From contig JAHBUW010000003.1 in NCBI GenBank assembly GCA_019637875.1, forward strand, positions 1 through 64,000: DNA of 64,000 nt, in the 5' to 3' direction. Origin of the DNA: Pseudobdellovibrionaceae bacterium (GTDB taxonomy: Bacteria; Bdellovibrionota; Bdellovibrionia; Bdellovibrionales; Bdellovibrionaceae). Position 1 is the first letter of the stretch. Each line of letters begins with the position of its first letter. The notes beneath the pieces were generated by a model. That model made no database searches. It saw only the letters and a list, made by a program, of their open reading frames with translations, and had not been told where the DNA came from. Position numbers and translations under genes: made by a program. This document shows positions 1 through 12,905 of this stretch, in pieces.

Positions 1-3000
1 ATCTCCCTCCGCGCACCGGACACGCTGGCCGCGAACTACGCGCTCACGCTCCCCGCCGCGACCGGATCGACGGGTCAATTCCTCGCGACCGATGGTGCCG
101 GCAATCTGTCGTGGGCGACGAATCCCGGCGGCACTCTGGGTTGGGTCCAAGGTGGAAACTCCTTCGGTCAAACCGGAACGCTCGGTACGAACGACAACCA
201 AGACCTCGCCCTTCGCACGAATGGCACGACTCGCCTGCACATCACGAATAGCGGTTACGTGGGGATCGGTACGACTTCGGGCACTCACGCTCTGAACGTC
301 AACGGCAACATCAACCTAATGAATGCCACCGACTCGATCCGTCTCAATGGCAATGCCATCTTCAGTCGCTACCCGGGACAGTGGGGACATATCAATACTT
401 TCATCGGCACCGAACGCCCGATGTCGTCCCTGAACACCGCCATGGCTTGGGGAAATTTGGCCATCGGCTACGATTCCGGGAACAGCCTGACCCTCGGCGG
501 AGGAAATACTTCCGTGGGTATCTACTCTAGCCGGAACGTGACGGATGCAATCAACAATACGGCAATCGGATTCTCTGCCCTATCGGGAACCGGCGTCGGA
601 AGTGGCAACACCGTTATTGGTAGCCATGCGTTGAATAATAGCACGAATGCAACCACCGGGGGGAACACCGCGGTGGGAGCGCATGCTTTGCACCAACTGA
701 CCTCCGGTGTCGATATTACGGCGATCGGGAACTCCGCCGGCTACGATCTACAAACCGGTGGTCACAACCTGTTCATCGGACGCGGAGCCGGAGCGGGCCT
801 TGTCAATGGTGCGAGAAACATCTTTATCGGCAGCAGCAATTTGACCGCACCGACCGGTACCATGAATGATTTCATGACCATCGGTAACCTCATCTACGGT
901 CGTTCGATGACGGGCACCGGGACGACGTCTGCTGGACGCGTCGGTATCCGCACCGACGATCCACAAGCCGTCTTGGATGTTTTCGGAACCGGTGCCGACT
1001 CCGCGATGCTCATTCCTCGAGACACCACGGCAAACCGCCCCACGGGCGTCGATGGAATGATCCGTTACAACAGTCAAACGTCGAAGTTCGAAGGATTCCA
1101 AGCCGGCCTTTGGACGGACATGATCGCCTCGGGTGCCGGAACTCTAGGCTGGGCCCAAGGTGGAAACTCCTTCGGTCAAACCGGAACGCTCGGTACGAAC
1201 GACAACCAGCCCCTCGTTTTCGAAACGAATAACGTCGCGCGGATGACTCTCGGCACGAATGGTTTCTTGGGTATCGGCAGTATCGCTCCGATCAACGGCC
1301 TGACGATTGGCGCAGCGAACAACCCGGACCTTTCAGCGATCAGCGTAGTGAATACCGATTCCTCGACGGCACGTTATCCCAGCGTCGTCGCCGTAAACTA
1401 CATGGGCTCCGCGAACTTAGGGCACCCGATGCTCGCCGTCGTGAATTCTCGAGGCAATTACGGCGGACCGGCACCGGTTGTCGCGGGCGATACTTTAGGA
1501 GCACTCGAGTTCCGCGGTCGTCTGGCGAACTACACGGAGCTTCCCGGCGCGGGAATCTTGGGCCTGGCCGAACAAAACTTCGCCACGGGCGTCGCGGGCT
1601 CCTATCTGAGTTTCCGGACGACCAACCTGAACGCGGGAGCGCTCTCCGAGAAAATGCGGATCACCGCGAACGGGAACGTCGGAATCGGTATCACTGCGCC
1701 GTCGGGACTTCTGCATGTAGAAGGTGGCGAAATCATCGCCGGCCCCGTCGCCACTGGCGCGGGCAACTCGGGTCGCCTGCAACTGCGTGAATTGGCCGCC
1801 AACGGGACAAACGGCGTCTCTTTACGCGCCGCCGACGCTATGGCCGCAAACTATACCCTGACCCTTCCCGCCGCCACCGGTACTTCGGGACAGCTCTTGA
1901 TGACCGATGGTGCCGGTAACTTGGGCTGGGCGACGAATACGGGCGGAACTCTCAACTGGTCGCAAGGTGGAAATTCCTTCGGTCAAACCGGAACGCTCGG
2001 CACGAACGATAGTCATCCTCTCGCGCTGCGCACAGCGGGCACCACACGCATGACGATTAACTCGGGCGGTAGCGTCGGGATCGGCACCGACACTCCTGTC
2101 GCCACTCTGAACGTCAATGGTTCGGCCCAAATCGAACGAAGCTTGACTGTCTATAACCACAGCGCCAACGTCTATTCCCCGAACGGAAGCGCGATGGCTC
2201 CGGAAGGCGGTGGGCATTGGTTCTACAATCCTTCGGCCACCGCCGGGGCCGCATCGAGCCTCATTATCGGTTCAAGGAACGGAACCGGCTACAACCACGC
2301 CTATCTCGGCGCGGTCGCACCGGCGTCTGGATATACCCCCAGCATCGTGATCGGCCAACAGACCGCAGCGACCACTTACGCCGAACGTCTGCGGATCGAT
2401 GCGAACGGATATATGGGTCTGGGCACCACCGCTCCCAGTGGACGCCTGCACGTCCGCAATACCGGGACCACGATGCCCTCGTTGTCGACGGACACGGAGA
2501 TTATCGTACAAAACAACTCCGGAGCCAGCAGTCAGGCCGGCATTTCGATCATTGGTGGAACCACCGGATATTCTTCGATCGCGATGGGTGACGGTGCCGC
2601 TCAATACCGGGCTTGGATCGGTTCGGACAACGCGAACAGCGCGCTCCGCTTCGGCACCGGCCTCAACGAGCAGGCCCGCATCGCGGCGGATGGAAAAATG
2701 GGTCTCGGCACCGCCGTCCCGACCGAACTTTTACACCTATCGGGCGGAAATATGTTGTTGAGCCCCGTTTCGGCGGGCGCGGGCAACACCGCACGACTGC
2801 GGATGCGCGAGCTCGTCGCAAACGGCTCGCATGCGGTCTCGCTACGCGCTCCGGATTCGATCGCGGCGGATTTCACGCTCACGTTGCCCGCCGCAACCGG
2901 AAGCTCGGGACAATTGTTGACGACCGATGGTTCCGGCAACCTGGGTTGGGTCAACAACACCGGCGGAACCCTCAATTGGTCGCAAGGTGGAAACTCGTTC

Positions 3001-4923
3001 GGACAGACCGGGACTCTTGGCACGAATGATAACAACGCCTTGGCGTTCAGAACGAACAACAACACCCGCATGACCATCACCCCCGGCGGAGCGGTCGGGA
3101 TCGGTACGAGCAACCCCGACCAAACACTGACCGTCGAGGACACCACTTTTGTCGGCATCAGCATCAAGGCGACGAACGGTTATACTCACGCCTTCCCCGG
3201 TCTCAACATCGATGCCTACCAAGGCGGGAGCTTCGCGGGGCATCCCCGCATCAATTTCTTCAACGCGCGCGGTTCGGAAGCTTCCACGAATCCGACGCCC
3301 GCCGGTCTCCACCTAGGTGTCGTCAACTTCATGGGATACACCGGTTCAGATGCGGAATTCTCCTCCGCGATCTACGCGGTCTCCGACGCCACATTCACTG
3401 CGGGCAGCAGCCCCTCGTCACTGGTCTTTACAACCACACCCTCGGGATCGACGAGCTCGACAGAGCGGATGATCATCAAAGGCTCGGGGAACGTCGGGAT
3501 CGGCACCACCGCGCCTTCAGGACGTCTGCACGTCGACGGCGGCGAGATCATCGCCGGCCCCATCGCCGCGGGCGCGGGCAACTCGGGTCGCTTGCAGCTG
3601 CGCGAGCTCGCCGTGAACGGCACGAACGGGGTTTCGCTCCGTGCCGCCGATACGATGGCGTCGAACTACACCCTGACTCTTCCCGCCGGTACCGGTACGA
3701 ACGGTCAGATTCTGCAGACCGACGCGTCCGGCAACCTTTCGTGGGTGACCAATTCGGGCGGAACAACCAACTGGGCGCAAGGTGGGAACTCGTTCGGTCA
3801 AACCGGAACCATCGGCACCAACGACAACCAAGCGCTCGCATTTGAAACCAACAACAACACCCGCATGTTCATCAACAGCGGCGGTAGCGTCGCGATCGGA
3901 ACGGGCACCCCCGAAGGCCTGATGGATGTGCGTGGGATGCTGTCGATTGGACCTTCACATTCGGGAATAAACAACCCCAACTCGGTGCTCGTGGCGCGCT
4001 CGCCGGATACATTCAATCCGCACTTCATCCTGGAGAAAGTCGGCCAAAACACCGGCGGATTCGCGCTGGACAACAACAACTTCATTATGGCCTCCGAGAT
4101 GGCGGACATCACCTTCCGCACGGGCGTAAATTACCAGGGTGATTATACGACGACCGGCAGCGAAGTCATGCGTATCAAGAACAACGGAAACGTCGGTATC
4201 GGCGAGACCGATCCGGACGACATGCTCCACATCTCGGCGGCGCCGGGAGAGAAGGCCCGCGCCCGCTTCTCGGCGTGGGGTGGAATCTATCATCGTCACT
4301 ACTCGATCGGTACGGACGGTAGCACCTCGACGATCGACCCGCCTTACTTCGACTTCTCGATTCGCGACGAAGACGCGGGCCAGGACCGTCTGACGGTCGC
4401 CTGGTCGAGCGGTTACGTGGGGATCGGCGAAATCGATCCCGACGAGCGCCTGCACGTGAACGGGAACGTCTTGGCCACGGCGTATCTGTACAGCTCGGAC
4501 GTGCGTTTGAAGAAGGACTTCGTGCTGTTGGATCACTCCCTCGAAAAACTTCTGGAACTGGAGCCCGTCACGTATCGGTGGATCCATCCGCAGAACCCCG
4601 AGGCCGACCGCGAGCAGATCGGTTTGAAAGCGCAACAGGTGCGCGACGTCTATCCGCAAGCGGTCCGCGAGGACGATAAAGGTTTCTTGCGTCTGGATTA
4701 CCCGGCGTTGATCGCCCCCGTCATCAAAGCGATCCAAGAGCTTTACTACGAACTCGTCGGAGTGAAACGTTCGATCGCCTCGAAAGCCGAGCAAACGGAC
4801 GTCGACGCGCTGAAGGCCGATAACGAAGCCAAAGACCGCGAGATCCGTCAGCTGAAACAGGAAAACGAAGCGATCAAAGGCTGGATCTGCGCGAAAGATC
4901 CGAACGCCGAGCTCTGTCGCTAA
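1..4923 (+). CDS. Giant fibre-like surface protein with C-terminal peptidase S74 chaperone (5' end outside window)
   Basis: The frame is open from base 1, so the gene begins upstream; the first ATG at 259 is internal. The visible ~1640 residues are long Gly/Asn/Thr-rich beta repeats. Phrases such as VGIGT and GNSFGQTGTLGTND recur, and one stretch (about 560-840) reads like a YadA-type head (NTAIG, GNTAVGAHAL). The C terminus is a peptidase S74 intramolecular chaperone: SSDVRLKKD (about 4492-4518), then EPVTYRW, IGLKAQQV and LDYPALIAPVIKAIQEL, followed by a coiled coil. In phage tail spikes and endosialidases this domain trimerises the fibre and cuts itself off at the Ser of the SD motif. Inference: a trimeric exported adhesin or fibre. 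No phage genes lie beside it. It converges on the kefC-like gene with a 4-nt overlap. Confidence 0.85.
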   Translation: MSLRAPDTLAANYALTLPAATGSTGQFLATDGAGNLSWATNPGGTLGWVQGGNSFGQTGTLGTNDNQDLALRTNGTTRLHITNSGYVGIGTTSGTHALNVNGNINLMNATDSIRLNGNAIFSRYPGQWGHINTFIGTERPMSSLNTAMAWGNLAIGYDSGNSLTLGGGNTSVGIYSSRNVTDAINNTAIGFSALSGTGVGSGNTVIGSHALNNSTNATTGGNTAVGAHALHQLTSGVDITAIGNSAGYDLQTGGHNLFIGRGAGAGLVNGARNIFIGSSNLTAPTGTMNDFMTIGNLIYGRSMTGTGTTSAGRVGIRTDDPQAVLDVFGTGADSAMLIPRDTTANRPTGVDGMIRYNSQTSKFEGFQAGLWTDMIASGAGTLGWAQGGNSFGQTGTLGTNDNQPLVFETNNVARMTLGTNGFLGIGSIAPINGLTIGAANNPDLSAISVVNTDSSTARYPSVVAVNYMGSANLGHPMLAVVNSRGNYGGPAPVVAGDTLGALEFRGRLANYTELPGAGILGLAEQNFATGVAGSYLSFRTTNLNAGALSEKMRITANGNVGIGITAPSGLLHVEGGEIIAGPVATGAGNSGRLQLRELAANGTNGVSLRAADAMAANYTLTLPAATGTSGQLLMTDGAGNLGWATNTGGTLNWSQGGNSFGQTGTLGTNDSHPLALRTAGTTRMTINSGGSVGIGTDTPVATLNVNGSAQIERSLTVYNHSANVYSPNGSAMAPEGGGHWFYNPSATAGAASSLIIGSRNGTGYNHAYLGAVAPASGYTPSIVIGQQTAATTYAERLRIDANGYMGLGTTAPSGRLHVRNTGTTMPSLSTDTEIIVQNNSGASSQAGISIIGGTTGYSSIAMGDGAAQYRAWIGSDNANSALRFGTGLNEQARIAADGKMGLGTAVPTELLHLSGGNMLLSPVSAGAGNTARLRMRELVANGSHAVSLRAPDSIAADFTLTLPAATGSSGQLLTTDGSGNLGWVNNTGGTLNWSQGGNSFGQTGTLGTNDNNALAFRTNNNTRMTITPGGAVGIGTSNPDQTLTVEDTTFVGISIKATNGYTHAFPGLNIDAYQGGSFAGHPRINFFNARGSEASTNPTPAGLHLGVVNFMGYTGSDAEFSSAIYAVSDATFTAGSSPSSLVFTTTPSGSTSSTERMIIKGSGNVGIGTTAPSGRLHVDGGEIIAGPIAAGAGNSGRLQLRELAVNGTNGVSLRAADTMASNYTLTLPAGTGTNGQILQTDASGNLSWVTNSGGTTNWAQGGNSFGQTGTIGTNDNQALAFETNNNTRMFINSGGSVAIGTGTPEGLMDVRGMLSIGPSHSGINNPNSVLVARSPDTFNPHFILEKVGQNTGGFALDNNNFIMASEMADITFRTGVNYQGDYTTTGSEVMRIKNNGNVGIGETDPDDMLHISAAPGEKARARFSAWGGIYHRHYSIGTDGSTSTIDPPYFDFSIRDEDAGQDRLTVAWSSGYVGIGEIDPDERLHVNGNVLATAYLYSSDVRLKKDFVLLDHSLEKLLELEPVTYRWIHPQNPEADREQIGLKAQQVRDVYPQAVREDDKGFLRLDYPALIAPVIKAIQELYYELVGVKRSIASKAEQTDVDALKADNEAKDREIRQLKQENEAIKGWICAKDPNAELCR
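139..3828 (+). repeat. Five ~60-nt direct repeats within the fibre gene
   Basis: Near-identical 60-nt units encode (G/N)W(V/A/S)QGGNSFGQTGTLGTND at about 139-198, 1147-1206, 1954-2013, 2974-3033 and 3769-3828. Spacing alternates between roughly 1.0 kb and 0.8 kb. Each follows a conserved block (RLQLRELAANG, LRAADxMAxNYTLTLPA) and precedes a variable head-like insert. The gene is thus built of modules that could recombine. Confidence 0.85.
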
Positions 4924-6755
4924 TTCGCAACCCCTTTGACCGTGCTTTCCGTCGCGGCCGTCAGGCTCTGCGACTCGCGCTTCGGCTCGACGAGCGGCGC
5001 GGGTTTGGGAATCGCGTTTCCGTACATGAGCTGACGTCCCGCCGTGAAGCTCTGCCCGCCCGACGCGATGTCGAGCTCCATCCGCTCGCGGTCCCGACGA
5101 CGGATATCCGCCGAGACCAAGGTGACTTCATCCTCACTAACGCCGATTTCCAAAAGTGCATGCTCCCCGAGGAGCATCGCGGATTCGAAAGTCTCACGAA
5201 TCTGGTAGTCGACGCCTTCCATGATGAGCTCCCGCGCCGTGACCCGATCGTAGGCACGCACCAGGGTTTTCGCTTGGGGGAACTCGCTTTTCACGAGCTC
5301 GACGACTTTTTTCGTCGTCTCTTTGTCGTCGATCGCGACGATGATCGCGTCGGCGGTCGCCGCGCCGGACGCCCGCAAGACGTCCAGACGTGAGCCATCC
5401 CCGTAGTAGATTTTGAAACCGAACTCGCCGGCAGAGCGGATCATGTCCGGATCCGCGTCGATGATGGTCACGTTCACGTCGCGCGCCAACAGAAGTTGTG
5501 AAACGACCTGCCCGAAGCGGCCAAAACCGATCAACAGAACGTTCCCGGTTAATCCCTCGGCGACGTCGAGCCCCGACGCATCGACCGAACCCGTGGGTCG
5601 CAGTTTCTGGAACACCAGAACGACCAGCGGGGTGAAGGCCATCGAGAGCACCACGATCGCCGTGAAGTTCGCGTTCGCGGCGGCATCGATCACGCCTTCC
5701 GCGGCGGCGGCGGAATACAGCACGAAGGCGAACTCCCCGCCTTGCGCCATGAGCGTCGCCCGATCCAAGGCTTCGGCGTTCGACGATTTCAGGAACCGTG
5801 CGACGCCGTAGATCGCGAGCCCCTTCACGAACATCATGGCGATCACGCCGCTCAGAATCAGCAGCCAGTTCTCGCTGACGACGTTCACATCGAGCGACAT
5901 CCCCACGCCGATAAAGAAAAGTCCGAGCAAAATTCCGCGAAAAGGTTCGATGTCGGCTTCGATCTGGTGACGGAAGGAGGACTCGGCCAGCAGCACGCCC
6001 GCCAGGAAAGCTCCCATCGCCATGGAGAGTCCCGTCATCTGCATCAGCAGCGCCGCCCCCAAAACCACGAACAACGCGGCGGCGGTCATGACCTCGCGCG
6101 CTTTCGCCAACGCGAGAATCCGGAAGAGCGGATTCAAAAGCCAAACCCCCGCCGTGACGAGCGCCGCGATCGCGCCCCCCGCGAGTCCCACGGAAGCCCA
6201 GCGCGACGTCGCCTCGGACATCGCTTCAACGGGCGACATCAAAACGACAAGCGCGAGGAGCGGCACGATCAACAGATCTTCGAACAGCAGAATCGAAACC
6301 ATCTTCTGCCCCGCGGGCAAATTGAGATCGCCGCGTTCGCCCAGAAGCTGCATCACGATCGCGGTCGACGTCAGCACGAAGCCCATGCCGCCGACGAAAG
6401 CGGTCGCGAAGTTGAAACCGAATGCGAGCCCCACGCCGGTCAAAAGAAGTGTGCAGATGAAAATCTGCAATGAGCCCAATCCGAAGATATCACGCCGCAT
6501 TCCCCAAAGATGCGAGGGCTGCATCTCTAGACCAATGACGAAAAGGAACATGACCACGCCGAGCTCCGCGACGTGCAACACCGCTTGGGAGTCCGAAAAC
6601 CAACCGAAGCCGAAGGGACCGATGATCAACCCGGCGCAAAGATAGCCAAGGACGGAGCCTAAGCCGATGCGGCGGAAAAGGGGGACCATGACGACGGCCA
6701 CGCCCAGGAGCGAGACCACTTTGATGAGATCGGAGGCATGTGCTTCGGCGGCCAT
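4920..6755 (-). CDS. kefC: Monovalent cation:proton antiporter, KefB/KefC-like
   Basis: 611 residues, close to E. coli KefC. The first ~380 residues hold about 12 membrane segments of the CPA2 Na/K:H exchanger fold. A cytosolic TrkA-N (RCK) domain starts near residue 403 with the nucleotide-binding motif GFGRFGQ, then DADPDMIR, YGDGSR and RETFESA, which follow the KefB/KefC pattern. Expected role: ligand-gated K+ efflux in exchange for protons during electrophile or pH stress. No KefF or KefG partner is visible nearby. The 3' end overlaps the convergent fibre gene by 4 nt. Some other CPA2 exchanger cannot be excluded, so the symbol is tentative. Confidence 0.8.
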   Translation of the reverse strand: MAAEAHASDLIKVVSLLGVAVVMVPLFRRIGLGSVLGYLCAGLIIGPFGFGWFSDSQAVLHVAELGVVMFLFVIGLEMQPSHLWGMRRDIFGLGSLQIFICTLLLTGVGLAFGFNFATAFVGGMGFVLTSTAIVMQLLGERGDLNLPAGQKMVSILLFEDLLIVPLLALVVLMSPVEAMSEATSRWASVGLAGGAIAALVTAGVWLLNPLFRILALAKAREVMTAAALFVVLGAALLMQMTGLSMAMGAFLAGVLLAESSFRHQIEADIEPFRGILLGLFFIGVGMSLDVNVVSENWLLILSGVIAMMFVKGLAIYGVARFLKSSNAEALDRATLMAQGGEFAFVLYSAAAAEGVIDAAANANFTAIVVLSMAFTPLVVLVFQKLRPTGSVDASGLDVAEGLTGNVLLIGFGRFGQVVSQLLLARDVNVTIIDADPDMIRSAGEFGFKIYYGDGSRLDVLRASGAATADAIIVAIDDKETTKKVVELVKSEFPQAKTLVRAYDRVTARELIMEGVDYQIRETFESAMLLGEHALLEIGVSEDEVTLVSADIRRRDRERMELDIASGGQSFTAGRQLMYGNAIPKPAPLVEPKRESQSLTAATESTVKGVAN

Positions 6756-6792: not shown

Positions 6793-7860
6793 TCAAAAGC
6801 CATGGGGTGGGTGCGAGCCGAGCAAGTACACGAGCTGTAGCTCCACGCGGTTGTCGACCACGGCGGCGACGCCCCTTTGGGTCAAGGCTTCGTGAACCAG
6901 GCCCCCACGCAACGTGGAGTACTCCCCCGCCCGGTAGGTGCTGTTCAAGGTGAGGGCATAGTCGAGATTGTCGCGCTTCTCGTCGACAAGCTCCCAACGG
7001 CGGTTGAGTTCGCTGAACAGATCGGCGCGAAGACCCGAAGACAGGCGGCGGTTCCAAGTCCGTTGATAGTAGAGATAGGTCCCGGCGTGAACGGACGCCG
7101 CCCCAAGCTCCGGAATCTTATTGCGGTAGTAGGTCTCGGTTTGGATAAGGTGTTTCGCGCGGCCGTGGGACATTTTCTTCCAGACGAAGTCCACTCCGGT
7201 GTGCCACACGCGTTCACCGCTGAAGTCCGTGTAGCCCCAGTAGTTGAGTCCCGTCCGCGAGTCGTCCGTCGCGACTTCTCCACGCAAGTAATGCACCGGT
7301 GCCAGTGGACGGCGGCCCAGTTGATCGCAGTGCCCGTAGCAGTAGCCGTTGGTCACGCCTGCGGTCAGATTGAATGTCTCGTTGAAACGGTGTCGGACTT
7401 CGGCCCCGGTATCCATCGCCGCCTCTTCCGCGAAGAACTGGCGGTGCACGCGCGGAGCTTCGGTGAAAAGCCATTCATGCTGATGAATCTGGTTCAAGCG
7501 GCCGATTCCCAGCAGGAATTTTCCGACCTTCACCTCGGTATTTTCCCAAAGGTAGTCGTTCGTCCGCAGATAGGCCTCGTGCACGTCCCACAAAAAATTT
7601 CCGCCGTGGCTGTGTCCCGCGAAGGTCAACGTTCCCTCGAAATATTGATCGACACTTCCCGAAATACTCAGCTCGGCGGAACGAATACGCAGTCGATTTT
7701 CATCCACTTGATTTTGATCAGAGTGCACGGGCAAAAAAAGGTCCGCCGCGCCCAGAAAATTCAGGCCGTCGAGACCGCCGCCGCCATGATCATGACCTTC
7801 GTGTCCGTCTTGAGCCAACAGCGCGAGTGGAAAAAACAAGATCAGAAAAAATAAACGCAC
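6793..7860 (-). CDS. Putative zinc-regulated outer-membrane protein with His-rich N terminus
   Basis: 355 residues. A signal peptide (MRLFFLILFFPLALLAQ) is followed at once by a metal-binding-looking GHEGHDHGGGG segment. The rest alternates polar and aromatic residues as in a beta-barrel (EVKVGKFLLGIGRLNQIHQHEW, DTGAEVRHRFNETFNLTAGV) and ends in a hydrophobic/aromatic stretch with terminal Phe. It is the last gene of a three-gene minus-strand operon (spacings 3 nt and a 4-nt overlap) that diverges from znuCBA-zur across a Zur-box-like palindrome. Inference: a porin or surface zinc-uptake component. No TonB box or plug domain is apparent. Confidence 0.65.
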   Translation of the reverse strand: MRLFFLILFFPLALLAQDGHEGHDHGGGGLDGLNFLGAADLFLPVHSDQNQVDENRLRIRSAELSISGSVDQYFEGTLTFAGHSHGGNFLWDVHEAYLRTNDYLWENTEVKVGKFLLGIGRLNQIHQHEWLFTEAPRVHRQFFAEEAAMDTGAEVRHRFNETFNLTAGVTNGYCYGHCDQLGRRPLAPVHYLRGEVATDDSRTGLNYWGYTDFSGERVWHTGVDFVWKKMSHGRAKHLIQTETYYRNKIPELGAASVHAGTYLYYQRTWNRRLSSGLRADLFSELNRRWELVDEKRDNLDYALTLNSTYRAGEYSTLRGGLVHEALTQRGVAAVVDNRVELQLVYLLGSHPPHGF

Positions 7861-7863
7861 GAC

Positions 7864-8553
7864 CTAGCCACCATCCTTCGGCGCGCCTTGCTTGAGGCCA
7901 CACAGGCGGACGTTTTCGAGATCCAGAAATTGCGAAGCGCCCAGCCCCTTGCCGGGAGTGCCGACGGTGTCGCGACCGGAATCCATGATCAGACGATCTC
8001 CGTCATAGAAAAGAAGGTGCGCGTACTGCCGATGAGCTTCGTCGTGATGGAAATCGAGATTGAAACGAACTTCATCCCGCGCCAACAACGTTTGCAGCGA
8101 CGTCAAGTCCGACCAGCTCTCGACCGCACCTTGAGCTTCGGTCTGAATCTGTACGCCCGCGGACGAGCGTGCCAGATCCAAGACGAAGGCGTTTTGGCCG
8201 TCGGGCTGCGCTTGACCGATAAAACGCACGCGCGCCCACGACTCCCACCGAAAATGAAAATCGAGATTGAAGGAATCGCTGACCCCAGCCCGATCGGGAA
8301 GACGTAAGCGCCCCTCGCCGATCAGGCAGTTCTCGACCAAACGAAAGTGCCCATGGACCACGGTTAAGACGGGTCCGTCGGCGAGGCGAAGCGTCGCCCC
8401 CGACGCCAATCCGTCCTCCGTTCCCTCGCCGGGACGCTTTTGGCCGTCGGGCTTTCCCAACGGATTCTCGGCGCGCGCGATAAGATCCAGATTCGGACCT
8501 CCCGCACAGGCGGTCAAAAGCAGAGCGAAGGCGAGGGGCAACGCGCGATTCAC
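7864..8553 (-). CDS. Putative lipoprotein in the divergent zinc operon
   Basis: 229 residues. The N terminus MNRALPLAFALLLTACAGG is a lipoprotein signal with lipobox LTAC. The mature part has motifs such as LDFHFRWESWARVRFIG and LDFHHDEAHRQYAHLLFYDG and looks like a beta-sandwich of the laminin/concanavalin type; that fold guess is weak. Its start overlaps the stop of the upstream gene by 4 nt and its stop lies 3 nt before the outer-membrane gene, so the three are translationally coupled. Function unknown. Control through the shared intergenic region suggests a role in zinc acquisition. Confidence 0.65.
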   Translation of the reverse strand: MNRALPLAFALLLTACAGGPNLDLIARAENPLGKPDGQKRPGEGTEDGLASGATLRLADGPVLTVVHGHFRLVENCLIGEGRLRLPDRAGVSDSFNLDFHFRWESWARVRFIGQAQPDGQNAFVLDLARSSAGVQIQTEAQGAVESWSDLTSLQTLLARDEVRFNLDFHHDEAHRQYAHLLFYDGDRLIMDSGRDTVGTPGKGLGASQFLDLENVRLCGLKQGAPKDGG

Positions 8554-9134
8554 GGCTCGTTCGCTCCGACGTTGCGCTGACGATGGCAGTCAATCGCGGC
8601 GCCGTGGTAGTGGCAGCTCAGGAAAGACGTTTTCGTACCTTGCACGCGCACTTGCATATCGCGTCCGTCTTGCCAGACCTTCAGTGCCGTTACGTCCGCG
8701 AGATTCTCCACGCGTCCGTCCAGTAGGATCAGCGATTGTTTCGCTCCTTCAAGAAGTTCTTCAATTTTGAAGGAACGTGCGGGCGCGGAGTAATCGACCG
8801 GGGCACGCGATTCGAGATAGTTGCAATGCGCAGCCGAGTCATGCAGATGGCAATCGTAGACTTCAGTGCCGAGCTGACCGTTCGGCTTCACTTCGTAGAT
8901 ATCGAGGACGGCTTCGTCCTGTTGACGTGTCCATTGAAAGCCCAGAACTTCGTCACCGACCTCACGCCCTTCTTCGGTACGGATATCAGAGCGGAACTGC
9001 GTGAACGCTCCCGCCCACAGCACTTCCAACTCCTCAAGACCTGCGGGCTCTGCCGCCTCACCTTGACCGTGCGCCATCACCAAGGACGAAAAACCAAGAA
9101 CGCTCGCCATTACGACCGGAAAGAACTTTTTCAT
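8550..9134 (-). CDS. Secreted protein with two CHxHxxAxxC motifs, first gene of divergent zinc operon
   Basis: 194 residues from ATG at 9134, preceded by a good GGAGG; an upstream in-frame ATG at 9224 would place 30 non-signal residues first. The signal peptide is MKKFFPVVMASVLGFSSLVMA. The mature protein carries two copies of one pattern, CHLHDSAAHC and CHYHGAAIDC, consistent with paired metal or disulfide sites. The family is not recognised. Its 5' end faces znuC across about 105 bp holding a Zur-box-like palindrome. Inference: a periplasmic zinc binder or chaperone. Confidence 0.7.
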   Translation of the reverse strand: MKKFFPVVMASVLGFSSLVMAHGQGEAAEPAGLEELEVLWAGAFTQFRSDIRTEEGREVGDEVLGFQWTRQQDEAVLDIYEVKPNGQLGTEVYDCHLHDSAAHCNYLESRAPVDYSAPARSFKIEELLEGAKQSLILLDGRVENLADVTALKVWQDGRDMQVRVQGTKTSFLSCHYHGAAIDCHRQRNVGANEP

Positions 9135-9187
9135 GGACCTGACCTCCAGGGCCCCCGGTTTAAAGGGACGATCGGTCCTTGTCCAGA

Positions 9188-9210
9188 CAAATGCAAACCA
9201 CTTGCATTTG
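9188..9210. promoter_or_regulatory. Zur-box-like operator
   Basis: A perfect 9+9 bp inverted repeat, CAAATGCAA and TTGCATTTG, separated by ACCAC, lies between the two divergent zinc operons. It sits 29 bp upstream of the znuC ATG and 54 bp upstream of the CHxH gene. A zur-type regulator gene closes the znu operon. Size and symmetry suit a Fur/Zur dimer. The assignment is inferred from context. Confidence 0.75.
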
Positions 9211-9238
9211 CGTGCCAATCCCATTAGGTCCTTGTCCC

Positions 9239-9925
9239 ATGAGCCCCCGCCCCGTCCTTTTCGACCTTCAAGACATCACCCTCTCCTACCAAGGAAAACC
9301 GGCGCTTCACCATTTCTCGACGACGTTCCGGCAGGGCGAAATGTGGGCGGTCCTCGGACCCAACGGCTCCGGCAAAAGTACATTGCTACGGATCTTGGCC
9401 GGTGAACTCACGCACTGGGAGGGGCGACTGGAACGCGCGGACCTTCGGTCCCGACAGATCGGATATCTCGGACAAACCGCGCTTCTGAATCAAGACCTGC
9501 CCGTCACCGTTTGGGACGTCGTCAGCCAGGGCCTTGCTCCCGAGATGAGTTTCGGATTGTGGATGAGTGGGCGTCGCGCGGCATCGGTCCACGCACGCAT
9601 CGCCACCGCGCTGGAAGCCATGGCGCTGACCGACTTGCGCGACCGCGTCTGGACCCATCTTTCGGGCGGCCAACGCCAGCGCGCCTTAATCGCGCGGCTG
9701 CTCGTACAGGATGCGGACGTGCTGCTTCTGGACGAGCCCATGAACAGCCTCGATGAAGCCAGTCAGCTGCGTTTACTGGAGCTTCTCGGAGAGCTGAATG
9801 CCGCCGGCAAGACCGTGATTTGCATTTTACATGACGAAAAGCTCGCCGCGCGCTTCTTCCCGCTCACGCTCTTGATGCAAGCCCGGTCGTCGGAAAAAAC
9901 CTCTCCGACCGAGGTGCGCGCATGA
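9239..9925 (+). CDS. znuC: Zinc ABC transporter, ATP-binding protein
   Basis: 228 residues from ATG 9239; an upstream in-frame ATG at 9179 would have to read through the operator. It has Walker A GPNGSGKST (residues about 40-48), signature LSGGQRQR (about 141-148), Walker B with DEPMNSLD (about 165-172) and a downstream switch His (CILHDE). The length is normal for a metal-type ABC ATPase. It powers Zn2+ import with the next two genes and overlaps znuB by 4 nt (ATGA). No strong Shine-Dalgarno precedes the start. Confidence 0.9.
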   Translation: MSPRPVLFDLQDITLSYQGKPALHHFSTTFRQGEMWAVLGPNGSGKSTLLRILAGELTHWEGRLERADLRSRQIGYLGQTALLNQDLPVTVWDVVSQGLAPEMSFGLWMSGRRAASVHARIATALEAMALTDLRDRVWTHLSGGQRQRALIARLLVQDADVLLLDEPMNSLDEASQLRLLELLGELNAAGKTVICILHDEKLAARFFPLTLLMQARSSEKTSPTEVRA

Positions 9926-10842
9926 TCGAGCTTTTCTTCACTCCTTTTACCGAACTCGATTTCATGGCCCGGGCGCTCATCGCCTCGATCGCGATCGCGA
10001 TCGTCGGCGCACCGGTGGGGGTGCTCCTCATGTTCCGCCGCCTCTCGCTGGTCGGCGACGCCCTCGGACACGCCCTGCTGCCGGGAGCCGCGTTCGGCTA
10101 CCTGATGTGGGGACTCTATTTTCCGGCGCTCTTCTTCGGCGGCTTGATCGCGGGTTTTACGGTCGCGGGACTCGCGAGCCTCGTCGCGCAAATCTCCCCC
10201 CAGAAGGAAGAAAGTTCGCTCGCCTCGATGTACCTCCTTTCGATCGCCGCGGGAGTCGTTCTCGTCAGCCGGTCGGGAAGCTCCGTCGACCTCATGCACT
10301 TGTTGTTCGGTTCAGTGCTCGCCCTCGACGAAACGACGCTGTACATGGTCCTCGGCGCGAGCTTGGTGACCCTTCTCTTGTGGGCCTTCCTGGGCCGGCT
10401 TCTTCTTTTCGAAGCGCTCGATGCCGCGCACTTGGAGCGCCTCGGTTATCCGGTCCGGTGGATTCATTTCTTGTTTTTGTTCATCGTCGTCCTGACACTC
10501 GTCACGGGGTTTCAAGCCTTGGGAACCTTGATGGCCTTGGGTCTCGTGCTTCTACCTTCGGCCGCCGCACGCTTTTGCGTCGACTCCTTGCCAAAACAAG
10601 TCGGCTTCGCCGTCGCGTTTGGCATCCTCGGAAGTTACTGCGGGCTTCTGACTTCATTCCATTTCAATTGGCCGAGCGGGCCGGCGATCGTTCTCAGCTG
10701 CGGGGCGATCTATCTGGCCGCATTGGTCTTCGGCCCCGCGCACGGCTTGTGGGCACGTCTACGCAAACCACGCCACCGCCCCCACCCCGGGATCACGATC
10801 CGCACGGGCGTCGTCGTTGCGCGCGATGAGGTGAAGTCATGA
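9922..10842 (+). CDS. znuB: Zinc ABC transporter, permease
   Basis: 306 residues with about eight hydrophobic segments of the ABC-3 (ZnuB/MntB) type. Typical family phrases include VGDALGHALLPG near the N terminus and FQALGTLMALGLVLLPSAAA in the C-terminal half. It forms the inner-membrane channel of the zinc importer with ZnuC and receives metal from ZnuA. It overlaps the genes on both sides by 4 nt, so the operon is tightly coupled. The C-terminal tail is short and basic. Confidence 0.9.
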   Translation: MIELFFTPFTELDFMARALIASIAIAIVGAPVGVLLMFRRLSLVGDALGHALLPGAAFGYLMWGLYFPALFFGGLIAGFTVAGLASLVAQISPQKEESSLASMYLLSIAAGVVLVSRSGSSVDLMHLLFGSVLALDETTLYMVLGASLVTLLLWAFLGRLLLFEALDAAHLERLGYPVRWIHFLFLFIVVLTLVTGFQALGTLMALGLVLLPSAAARFCVDSLPKQVGFAVAFGILGSYCGLLTSFHFNWPSGPAIVLSCGAIYLAALVFGPAHGLWARLRKPRHRPHPGITIRTGVVVARDEVKS

Positions 10843-11774
10843 AGTTCGTTGGCTCATTGCTCCTTCTGGTCCTCCTCGCACCGGTCGTTCGGGCGGCCCC
10901 GATTCCCGTCGTGACGAGCTTCTCCATTTTGAAAAATCTGGTCGAAGAAGTGGGCGGCGACGCCGTCACGGTCAAAAGCCTGATTCCCGCCGGCGCCGAT
11001 CCGCACGGTTTTCATCCACGCCCCTCCGACGTTCTCGAGATCAAAAAAGCGCGTCTCGTTTTTTTGAGCGGCTGGGGGCTTGAGCCCTGGGCCGCCCAAC
11101 TTTGGAAGTCCTCCAAATCGACCGCGACTTTGGTGGAAGTCTCGGACGGATTGAAACCGCTTGCCGCCGAGTCGGGCTTGGACCCCGCGCATCTCCATGG
11201 CCATGATCACGACCATGACCATCATCAACACGGCCCCAATGATCCGCACTACTGGCACGATCCCGCGCGCGTCCGCCAAGTCGTCGCGAAGATCGCCGCC
11301 AAGTTGGCCGAGGTCGAACCCACGCGCACGGCAGAGTTCAACGCCCGCGCCGAGAAACTCAACGCCCGGATTCTCGAAATCGAAACAGCCACGCGCACGG
11401 CCCTTGCGGGTCTTCGTCTGAAAGACCGCGTCGCCCTGTCGCCGCACGACGGCTTCAAGTATATGGGCGATGCTTTCGGCGTGCGCTTCGTCTCGGTCAT
11501 GGGCGTTTCGACGAATGAGGACCTGAGCGCCGAGCGACTGGCGGGACTGCAGAAGATGCTGAAAGCCGGCCGCATTCAGGTCGCCTTCTTCGAACGGGGG
11601 CATCACGAGCGAGCGTTGCGGACCGCCCTTTCGCAAAGCCAAATCCCCACGGAAACTCTCGACGGGGATTCGCTGGGCGAGCAAACGAAAACCTATGTCG
11701 AACTTCTCAGATCGAACACCGAAAAACTCGTGCGCGCTTTCGCGGCCGCGGCCTCTTCCAAGGTGACTCCATGA
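10839..11774 (+). CDS. znuA: Zinc ABC transporter, substrate-binding protein
   Basis: 311 residues with signal peptide MKFVGSLLLLVLLAPVVRA. It has the cluster A-I metal-binding fold. DPHGFHPRPSD carries a likely zinc-ligand His, a His/Asp-rich loop with HDHDHDHHQH occupies residues about 118-131, and NDPHYWHDP, SPHDGFKYMGD and ERGHHERA follow. The charged His loop is typical of ZnuA rather than manganese binders. It captures periplasmic zinc for ZnuB and overlaps zur by 4 nt. Confidence 0.92.
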   Translation: MKFVGSLLLLVLLAPVVRAAPIPVVTSFSILKNLVEEVGGDAVTVKSLIPAGADPHGFHPRPSDVLEIKKARLVFLSGWGLEPWAAQLWKSSKSTATLVEVSDGLKPLAAESGLDPAHLHGHDHDHDHHQHGPNDPHYWHDPARVRQVVAKIAAKLAEVEPTRTAEFNARAEKLNARILEIETATRTALAGLRLKDRVALSPHDGFKYMGDAFGVRFVSVMGVSTNEDLSAERLAGLQKMLKAGRIQVAFFERGHHERALRTALSQSQIPTETLDGDSLGEQTKTYVELLRSNTEKLVRAFAAAASSKVTP

Positions 11775-12316
11775 GCGCGCAGGTCAGCTGCGCCGCCCGC
11801 CGTGAGCTGCGCGCCGAAGAACTGCTTAAGAAATCGGGCCTGAAGGTCACCGACATTCGTATGGGGTTATTGACCCTTTTGCATTCAGGTCGACACCCCC
11901 AATCGGCGGAAGATCTCTATTCACAACTCCCGGCCTTGTTGAAGAAACTCGGCTCGCGCAAAAGCGCGGACTTAGTCACGGTCTACCGCAACCTGAAGAG
12001 CTTTCTGGACGCCGGATTAATTCAAGCCACCGAGCTCGGCACGGGACGCAAACTTTACGAGTGGCTTGATCAAAGTCATCATCACCATCATGTCGTCTGC
12101 CGCGATTGCGGGCGTGTCGACGTTCTCGAGATCTGTGGCCTAGATCAGCACTTCAAAGACATCCGCAAGTTGGGTTATGGCGACCTGACTCACCGCCTGG
12201 AATTTTTCGGCGTCTGCGCGACTTGCCAAGAGAAGCGCGTGCGCGAGTCCCTCGGGTCGGCACGGATCACCGAGCTTCCGACGGCACTGCCGCAACGCGG
12301 ACCCACGCGCGCGTGA
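11771..12316 (+). CDS. zur: Fur-family zinc uptake regulator
   Basis: 181 residues. The winged helix is followed by VTVYRNLKSFLDAGLI, the DNA-recognition signature of the Fur family, a His run near residue 100 (QSHHHHHVVC), CRDC (110-113) and CATC (149-152), which form the structural zinc site. Being last gene of the znu operon and 2.6 kb from a Zur-like operator identifies it as Zur rather than Fur or PerR. It likely represses both divergent zinc operons, its own included, when zinc is sufficient. The N terminus carries about 20 extra residues. Confidence 0.88.
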   Translation: MSAQVSCAARRELRAEELLKKSGLKVTDIRMGLLTLLHSGRHPQSAEDLYSQLPALLKKLGSRKSADLVTVYRNLKSFLDAGLIQATELGTGRKLYEWLDQSHHHHHVVCRDCGRVDVLEICGLDQHFKDIRKLGYGDLTHRLEFFGVCATCQEKRVRESLGSARITELPTALPQRGPTRA

Positions 12317-12320
12317 TCGC

Positions 12321-12349
12321 TTGACCCTTCGGGATCCCGCTCCGACAAT
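12321..12349 (+). promoter_or_regulatory. Sigma-70-type promoter of the zrgA-like gene
   Basis: TTGACC at 12321-12326 and GACAAT at 12344-12349 are separated by 17 bp. The predicted start is about 15 nt before the ATG at 12372. The site lies just after the zur stop codon. No copy of the CAAATGCAA palindrome is visible here. Confidence 0.5.
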
Positions 12350-12371
12350 GGGGGCGAAAGCGAGGCTTCAC

Positions 12372-12905
12372 ATGAAACTGCAATCACTTCTCTTAGGTAG
12401 CGCACTGGTTCTCGGCCTGTCGGCGGGCGCGCACGATCACAAACATGAAAAGGGTCACAGCCACGGCAAACACGTTCACGGCGAAGGCCGCATGGATGTC
12501 GCGTTCGAAGCGCTGAAAGGCGAGATCGACTTCAAGATCAGCGCGGACGTCGTGCTCGGTTCCGAGAACGCGCCGAAAGGCGCGAAAGCGAAAGCCGAAG
12601 AAAAAATGAAGCTCGACAACTTGGTCGCCAAGTTCAAAGAGAGCGTGAAATTCGAAGGCGCGACTTGCACGTGGAATAAAGTCGAAGTCGACGTCGACCG
12701 CCACAAAGTCGGCAAAGTCGAGCACGCCGAAATCGAAGTCGAAGCGGACGTCACCTGCGACAAGTCGCTCAAGGGCGGAAAGTTCGTCGTGGATTTACGC
12801 GCGCACTATCCATCGCTCAACAAAATCGAAGTCCAAATCGTCACGCCCGAGCTGCAAAAGGGTGGCGTGATCGACGCGAAGACCAACTCCATCGACCTGA
12901 ATTAA
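12372..12905 (+). CDS. ZrgA-like (DUF2796) secreted zinc-uptake protein
   Basis: 177 residues from ATG 12372, with GAGG upstream. A signal peptide is followed by the His-rich stretch HDHKHEKGHSHGKHVHGEGR, then MDVAFEALKGEIDFKISA and a lysine-rich amphipathic segment. This matches the DUF2796/ZrgA family of periplasmic zinc-uptake proteins known in Vibrio. Two cysteines sit in the second half (ATCTWNKVEV, EADVTCDKS). It lies directly downstream of zur but has its own promoter. Inference: a periplasmic zinc buffer feeding the importer. Confidence 0.78.
   Translation: MKLQSLLLGSALVLGLSAGAHDHKHEKGHSHGKHVHGEGRMDVAFEALKGEIDFKISADVVLGSENAPKGAKAKAEEKMKLDNLVAKFKESVKFEGATCTWNKVEVDVDRHKVGKVEHAEIEVEADVTCDKSLKGGKFVVDLRAHYPSLNKIEVQIVTPELQKGGVIDAKTNSIDLN

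Follow-up and report, generated by a model that had tools for sequence, protein, structure and literature searches.

The locus described here raises the question of whether three envelope genes that lie back to back with a zinc importer operon form the outer part of the same uptake system. It occupies positions 6793-12905 of a 64,000-nt stretch of contig JAHBUW010000003.1 (GCA_019637875.1), hereafter the window. On the minus strand, gene A (8550..9134) encodes an exported double-CHxH protein of 194 aa, gene B (7864..8553) a lipoprotein with the lipobox LTAC and gene C (6793..7860) a predicted outer-membrane beta-barrel of 355 aa. This trio is divergent from a series of plus-strand genes, namely znuC (9239..9925, ABC ATPase), znuB (9922..10842, ABC-3 permease), znuA (10839..11774, periplasmic metal-binding protein with a His-rich loop), zur (11771..12316, Fur-family regulator) and zrgA (12372..12905, ZrgA-family protein). 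A first-pass annotation of this DNA had listed all these genes and described the trio as translationally coupled. The genes are all found where it had placed them, and the coupling agrees with an overlap of 4 nt (GTGA) between A and B and a gap of 3 nt from B to C. On the opposite strand, ATGA overlaps join znuC to znuB, znuB to znuA and znuA to zur. The gap from zur to zrgA is 55 nt long and contains a promoter-like match, so that zrgA is not coupled to zur. A Kef-type Na+(K+)/H+ antiporter gene with a TrkA-N domain (4920-6755, minus strand) begins 37 nt past the C stop and, being on the same strand, may share the trio transcript; no such antiporter was found adjoining C in the relatives. Further out, a long repetitive protein of 1554 aa is encoded at 259-4923 (plus strand), and its C-terminal part resembles by eye the peptidase S74 (self-cleaving fibre chaperone) type.

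Above the Pfam cut-offs, the window proteins match ABC_tran, ABC-3, ZnuA, FUR and ZrgA. With an ABC ATPase (PF00005), an ABC-3 permease (PF00950) and a ZnuA-type protein (PF01297) together, the ABC genes are, by their predicted domain content, a zinc ABC importer of the ZnuABC/AztABC kind. The zur product scores 77 bits against PF01475 (cut-off 23.1) and, from its predicted operator and its gene company, is predicted to be a zinc sensor and the repressor of the zinc genes; a tree of Zur proteins was poorly resolved and was set aside as evidence. The ATPase, the ABC-3 permease, the ZnuA-type protein with its His loop, the Fur-family gene in the operon and the palindromic operator are shared with the known ZnuABC and AztABC systems under Zur. 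The locus differs from these systems by three additional envelope genes under the same box and by ABC genes whose nearest NCBIfam models, the AztABC equivalogs, are matched below cut-off (AztA for znuC, 178 bits with a cut-off of 220; AztB for znuB, 220 with 280; AztC for znuA, 181 with 350).

Between the two operons, the first-pass annotation had noticed a perfect Zur-type palindrome. This palindrome, CAAATGCAA-N5-TTGCATTTG, is present at 9188-9210, with 53 nt separating it from the A start and 28 nt from that of znuC; nowhere else in the genome of 3.98 Mb is there a sequence within 3 mismatches of it. Two further perfect 9+5+9 palindromes occur in the window, and palindromy alone was therefore dropped as evidence; the significance of the predicted box comes from its footprint in relatives. 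The core of the box, ATGCAA-N5-TTGCAT, includes a 17-bp palindrome, ATGCAACnnnGTTGCAT, that was put forward, likewise by prediction, as the Zur site ahead of znuABC-zur in two genomes of Desulfovibrio (PMC545781). The two systems also share a zur gene beside the znu genes, and differ in that the Desulfovibrio operons are listed without envelope genes. At 74 loci chosen by homology alone, the core was scored as present upstream of the trio operon when at least 10 of its 12 positions were kept. By this measure, 41 of the 74 trio operons have the core, compared with 18 among 577 further ORFs of the same loci (Fisher 1.5e-30, a value that ignores relatedness and is computed with controls some of which may be true sites). 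Operons without a box of this type make up about half of those scored, and most of them are more distant. In two genomes of genus g31, the operon is divided between two loci each, A-B-znuA and C-znuC(-znuB) (L059, L060, L063 and L064), and all four upstream regions carry a variant palindrome, (T/A)TGCGA-N5-TCGCAA. Since the four regions share the variant half-site (T/A)TGCGA, the two halves of the operon seem to have changed their box together, as if the site of the regulator had shifted in a co-ordinated way. Further regulon members were also sought in the window genome, in which four places lie at one mismatch to the core; the surrounding ORFs are not zinc genes, and these sites were taken as chance matches.

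To examine the linkage of the trio in relatives, neighbourhoods of up to 20 kb were annotated with profiles built from the window proteins. A search with a single sequence finds C in 41 of the 141 genomes of the order. A blind homology search (window included) gave 39 C loci, of which 35 have znuA (31 loci) or znuC (four loci) beside C; in the one znuC-only locus that was checked, an ABC-3 permease was confirmed. The remaining four are two loci that keep the perfect 12/12 core (L067 and L082) and two on short contigs (L085 and L086). The genes usually run A-B-C-znuA-znuC, mostly as a single operon, and zur often stands at one of its ends. In a named collection, 37 of 40 C loci have znu genes beside C and the other three stop at contig ends. 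The labels in this collection are Bdellovibrio, Bacteriovorax, Halobacteriovorax, Oligoflexales, Silvanigrella and Pseudobacteriovorax, together with a few contigs labelled Zeta- or Betaproteobacteria, Chromatiales, Bradymonadales or Leptospiraceae, among which some labels may be binning errors. A is missing from many Bdellovibrio operons, some of which lack B as well, so neither is essential to the arrangement. The first-pass annotation had proposed a place for the trio in zinc import and had called for its co-occurrence with znu and zur to be examined in other genomes. That co-occurrence is what the 35 loci display, the homologues are not found mainly away from zinc genes, and the placement is now strongly supported, both by the order of the genes and by a predicted Zur box that is conserved across many genomes. 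The window taken singly could suggest a chance neighbourhood, the trio being divergent from the znu operon and not within it. This explanation has next to no probability and is already refuted by the linkage data, given an order conserved in many genera, the footprint of the box, the same variant box in the split loci and the exchange of the ABC transporter described below.

The window genome encodes one ZnuA-family protein, which shares 25% identity with its counterpart in the relatives' operon. Among solved structures, the best match of the window protein is 5w56 (E 3.6e-31), which we take to be AztC of Paracoccus, whereas the relatives' ZnuA has AdcA as its nearest match and reaches 5w56 at only 1.5e-6. 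Because the two ZnuA proteins differ to this extent, the window lineage has a different, Azt-like zinc importer, next to which the trio and the box were kept. We regard this exchange of partner as the strongest sign that the trio serves zinc import as such.

The place of zrgA is different. The first-pass annotation had included ZrgA in the extended system, and the gene is indeed the neighbour of zur, with a product that scores 76 bits against PF10986 (cut-off 27.4). In the relatives' neighbourhoods, no ZrgA was found beside the trio. PF10986 occurs in 68 of the 141 genomes of the order, and ZrgA was counted by hand in 29 of the 41 genomes with C (one weak match) versus 39 of the 100 without C. 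This co-occurrence stems from a single genus, outside which ZrgA is present in 7 of 19 C genomes, so that the expected tracking of the trio by ZrgA is not observed there and ZrgA was dropped as part of the conserved unit. We treat zrgA as a zinc gene that joined the cluster in the window lineage. It belongs to the same Pfam family as ZrgA of the Vibrio ZrgABCDE system (PMC9817125) and, unlike it, stands without zrgB, zrgC or DUF3299, no such ORF lying beside zrgA in the window; the trio is unrelated to the Zrg proteins. In the one relative's locus inspected (L149), zrgA lies in a cluster of its own, DUF3299-zrgA-ABC ATPase-FtsX (FtsX read from sequence), which resembles the Vibrio zrg operon (PMC9817125).

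The C protein has a signal peptide, a His-rich N-terminus and a C-terminal Phe, and the motifs HxHDW, GHxH and HPxHxF are conserved among its relatives. Against the BBP2 porin family (PF07642), the window protein scores 20.2 bits (cut-off 26.2), and 12 of the 25 C relatives of the alignment match this family, with a best E of 3e-9. As proposed here, C would resemble ZnuD and the other Zur-regulated TonB-dependent zinc receptors in providing Zur-controlled zinc entry at the outer membrane. It differs from them by its 355 residues, too few for their large barrel, by the absence of any Pfam match to a plug domain and by a weak BBP2 match as its sole Pfam likeness. PcoB/CopB-type copper outer-membrane proteins are also small His-rich barrels linked to metals; their gene company is different from that of C, and the likeness is drawn without direct comparison. 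A search for C on plasmids gave no match. In the 99% complete genome of one relative (G001), no TonB plug domain was detected. Most C genomes also carry plug domains, and the idea of C as a stand-in for TonB receptors was rejected.

The structure model of A (pLDDT 89) consists of a helix plus four strands, twice, as a tandem repeat in which the final hairpin of either unit bears a Cys/His cluster (CHxH...C). From the strand limits of the model, Cys 95/104 and 174/183 would face each other across these hairpins, with His 96, 98, 103 and His 175, 177, 184 beside the cysteine pairs. Among solved structures, the model is most similar to 4exr (Z 9.5, rmsd 4.1 over 137 residues), an uncharacterised lipoprotein; Foldseek listed nothing for A at E below 0.001, and searching solved structures with profiles of A, B and C gave nothing credible. 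A was detected in 17 of 148 relatives by a single-sequence search and in 32 of 291 genomes of the phylum by a profile search, and relative G001 carries two tandem A genes (L077:7979-9173). B adjoins A in 23 of the 25 genomes with a strong A match. The exceptions are L221, where A is alone, and a Bacteriovoracia-like genome (L222:4548-5970), where A lies beside a His-rich permease resembling the NicO/RcnA type, with a Fur-family gene (zur) 1.3 kb away. Such a neighbour, together with the fact that the ZnuA fold family binds Mn and Fe as well and with the poor resolution of the Zur tree, would be in agreement with a system for another metal (manganese, nickel, cobalt or copper), in which the Fur-family protein would not be a zinc sensor. 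We consider this very improbable in view of the His-rich loop of ZnuA, the zinc AztABC systems as nearest models, the zinc-binding proteins among the best solved relatives of ZnuA, the box core identical to the predicted Zur site of Desulfovibrio znuABC-zur and the presence of ZrgA next door. The zinc specificity attributed to the trio is read from its neighbours.

Neither A nor B has a Pfam family. The model of B (pLDDT 88) is a galectin/CBM66-like beta-sandwich (Z 11.9 and rmsd 3.2 over 151 with CBM66, Z about 10.5 with galectins), and no sequence match of B to galectin/ConA-like lectins was found. H169 and H179 are invariant, and the profile search found B in 51 of the 291 genomes of the phylum. 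A second, weaker B group occurs in Bdellovibrio beside a dCTP-deaminase-like gene (L196:5934-6593 and L198:6329-7000), without a Zur box; in both copies inspected, the first invariant His is kept and the second is absent. These paralogues away from zinc genes, the lectin-like fold and the paired periplasmic cysteines of A could indicate that the trio is controlled by Zur without taking part in transport, as an envelope adaptation to zinc starvation in which B would bind cell wall or polysaccharide and A would be a redox or folding helper for C. A precedent for such control is the cell-wall hydrolase under Zur in Vibrio cholerae (PMC6381278). In most relatives, however, the trio is inside a single operon with znuA and znuC, it is kept next to a different zinc importer in the window lineage, and both C and A have conserved His motifs, so that we regard an adaptation of this kind as unlikely.

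Taken together, the comparisons of gene order, box and partner exchange support a zinc role of the trio well, and we think it probable that A, B and C make up the outer-envelope part of a zinc uptake system under Zur control, with C as entry, A as carrier and B as accessory. This division of labour, with entry through C, carriage by A and assistance by B, is plausible. When zinc is scarce, Zur would leave the common box and both divergent operons would be transcribed. Zinc would then pass the outer membrane along the conserved histidines of C, a small barrel without a TonB plug, and would be bound in the periplasm on the two Cys/His hairpins of A and passed to ZnuA, after which ZnuBC would pump it into the cytoplasm. 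B, as an outer-membrane lipoprotein with a lectin-like fold, may act as an accessory of C, either as scaffold, gate or surface ligand binder. The steps of capture, transfer and import fit the predicted structures; we infer zinc binding, localisation, the direction of flow and every hand-off step. More tentatively, and with rather less than even confidence, the trio could be a dedicated TonB-independent zinc conduit through outer membrane and periplasm, in which C is gated or capped by B and A shuttles zinc on its paired Cys/His hairpins to the ZnuA-type protein of each lineage.

Most of what is known about how zinc crosses the outer membrane concerns TonB-dependent receptors. In an open-access library, searched for work on zinc, znu or Zur in Bdellovibrio, on PF07642 in relation to zinc and on TonB-independent zinc entry, we found no description of the trio, and no zinc regulon described for the Bdellovibrionota, a phylum of bacterial predators. 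The locus points to three protein families, two of them unmatched in Pfam, that accompany zinc importers across this phylum, and the trio suggests a route for zinc across the outer membrane that is so far unstudied. The locus supplies testable genes, residues and a DNA site, as well as a conserved Zur-type motif for the Bdellovibrionota. If the proposed conduit is true, it would represent a class of outer-membrane metal importer not described before and distributed across this predatory phylum.
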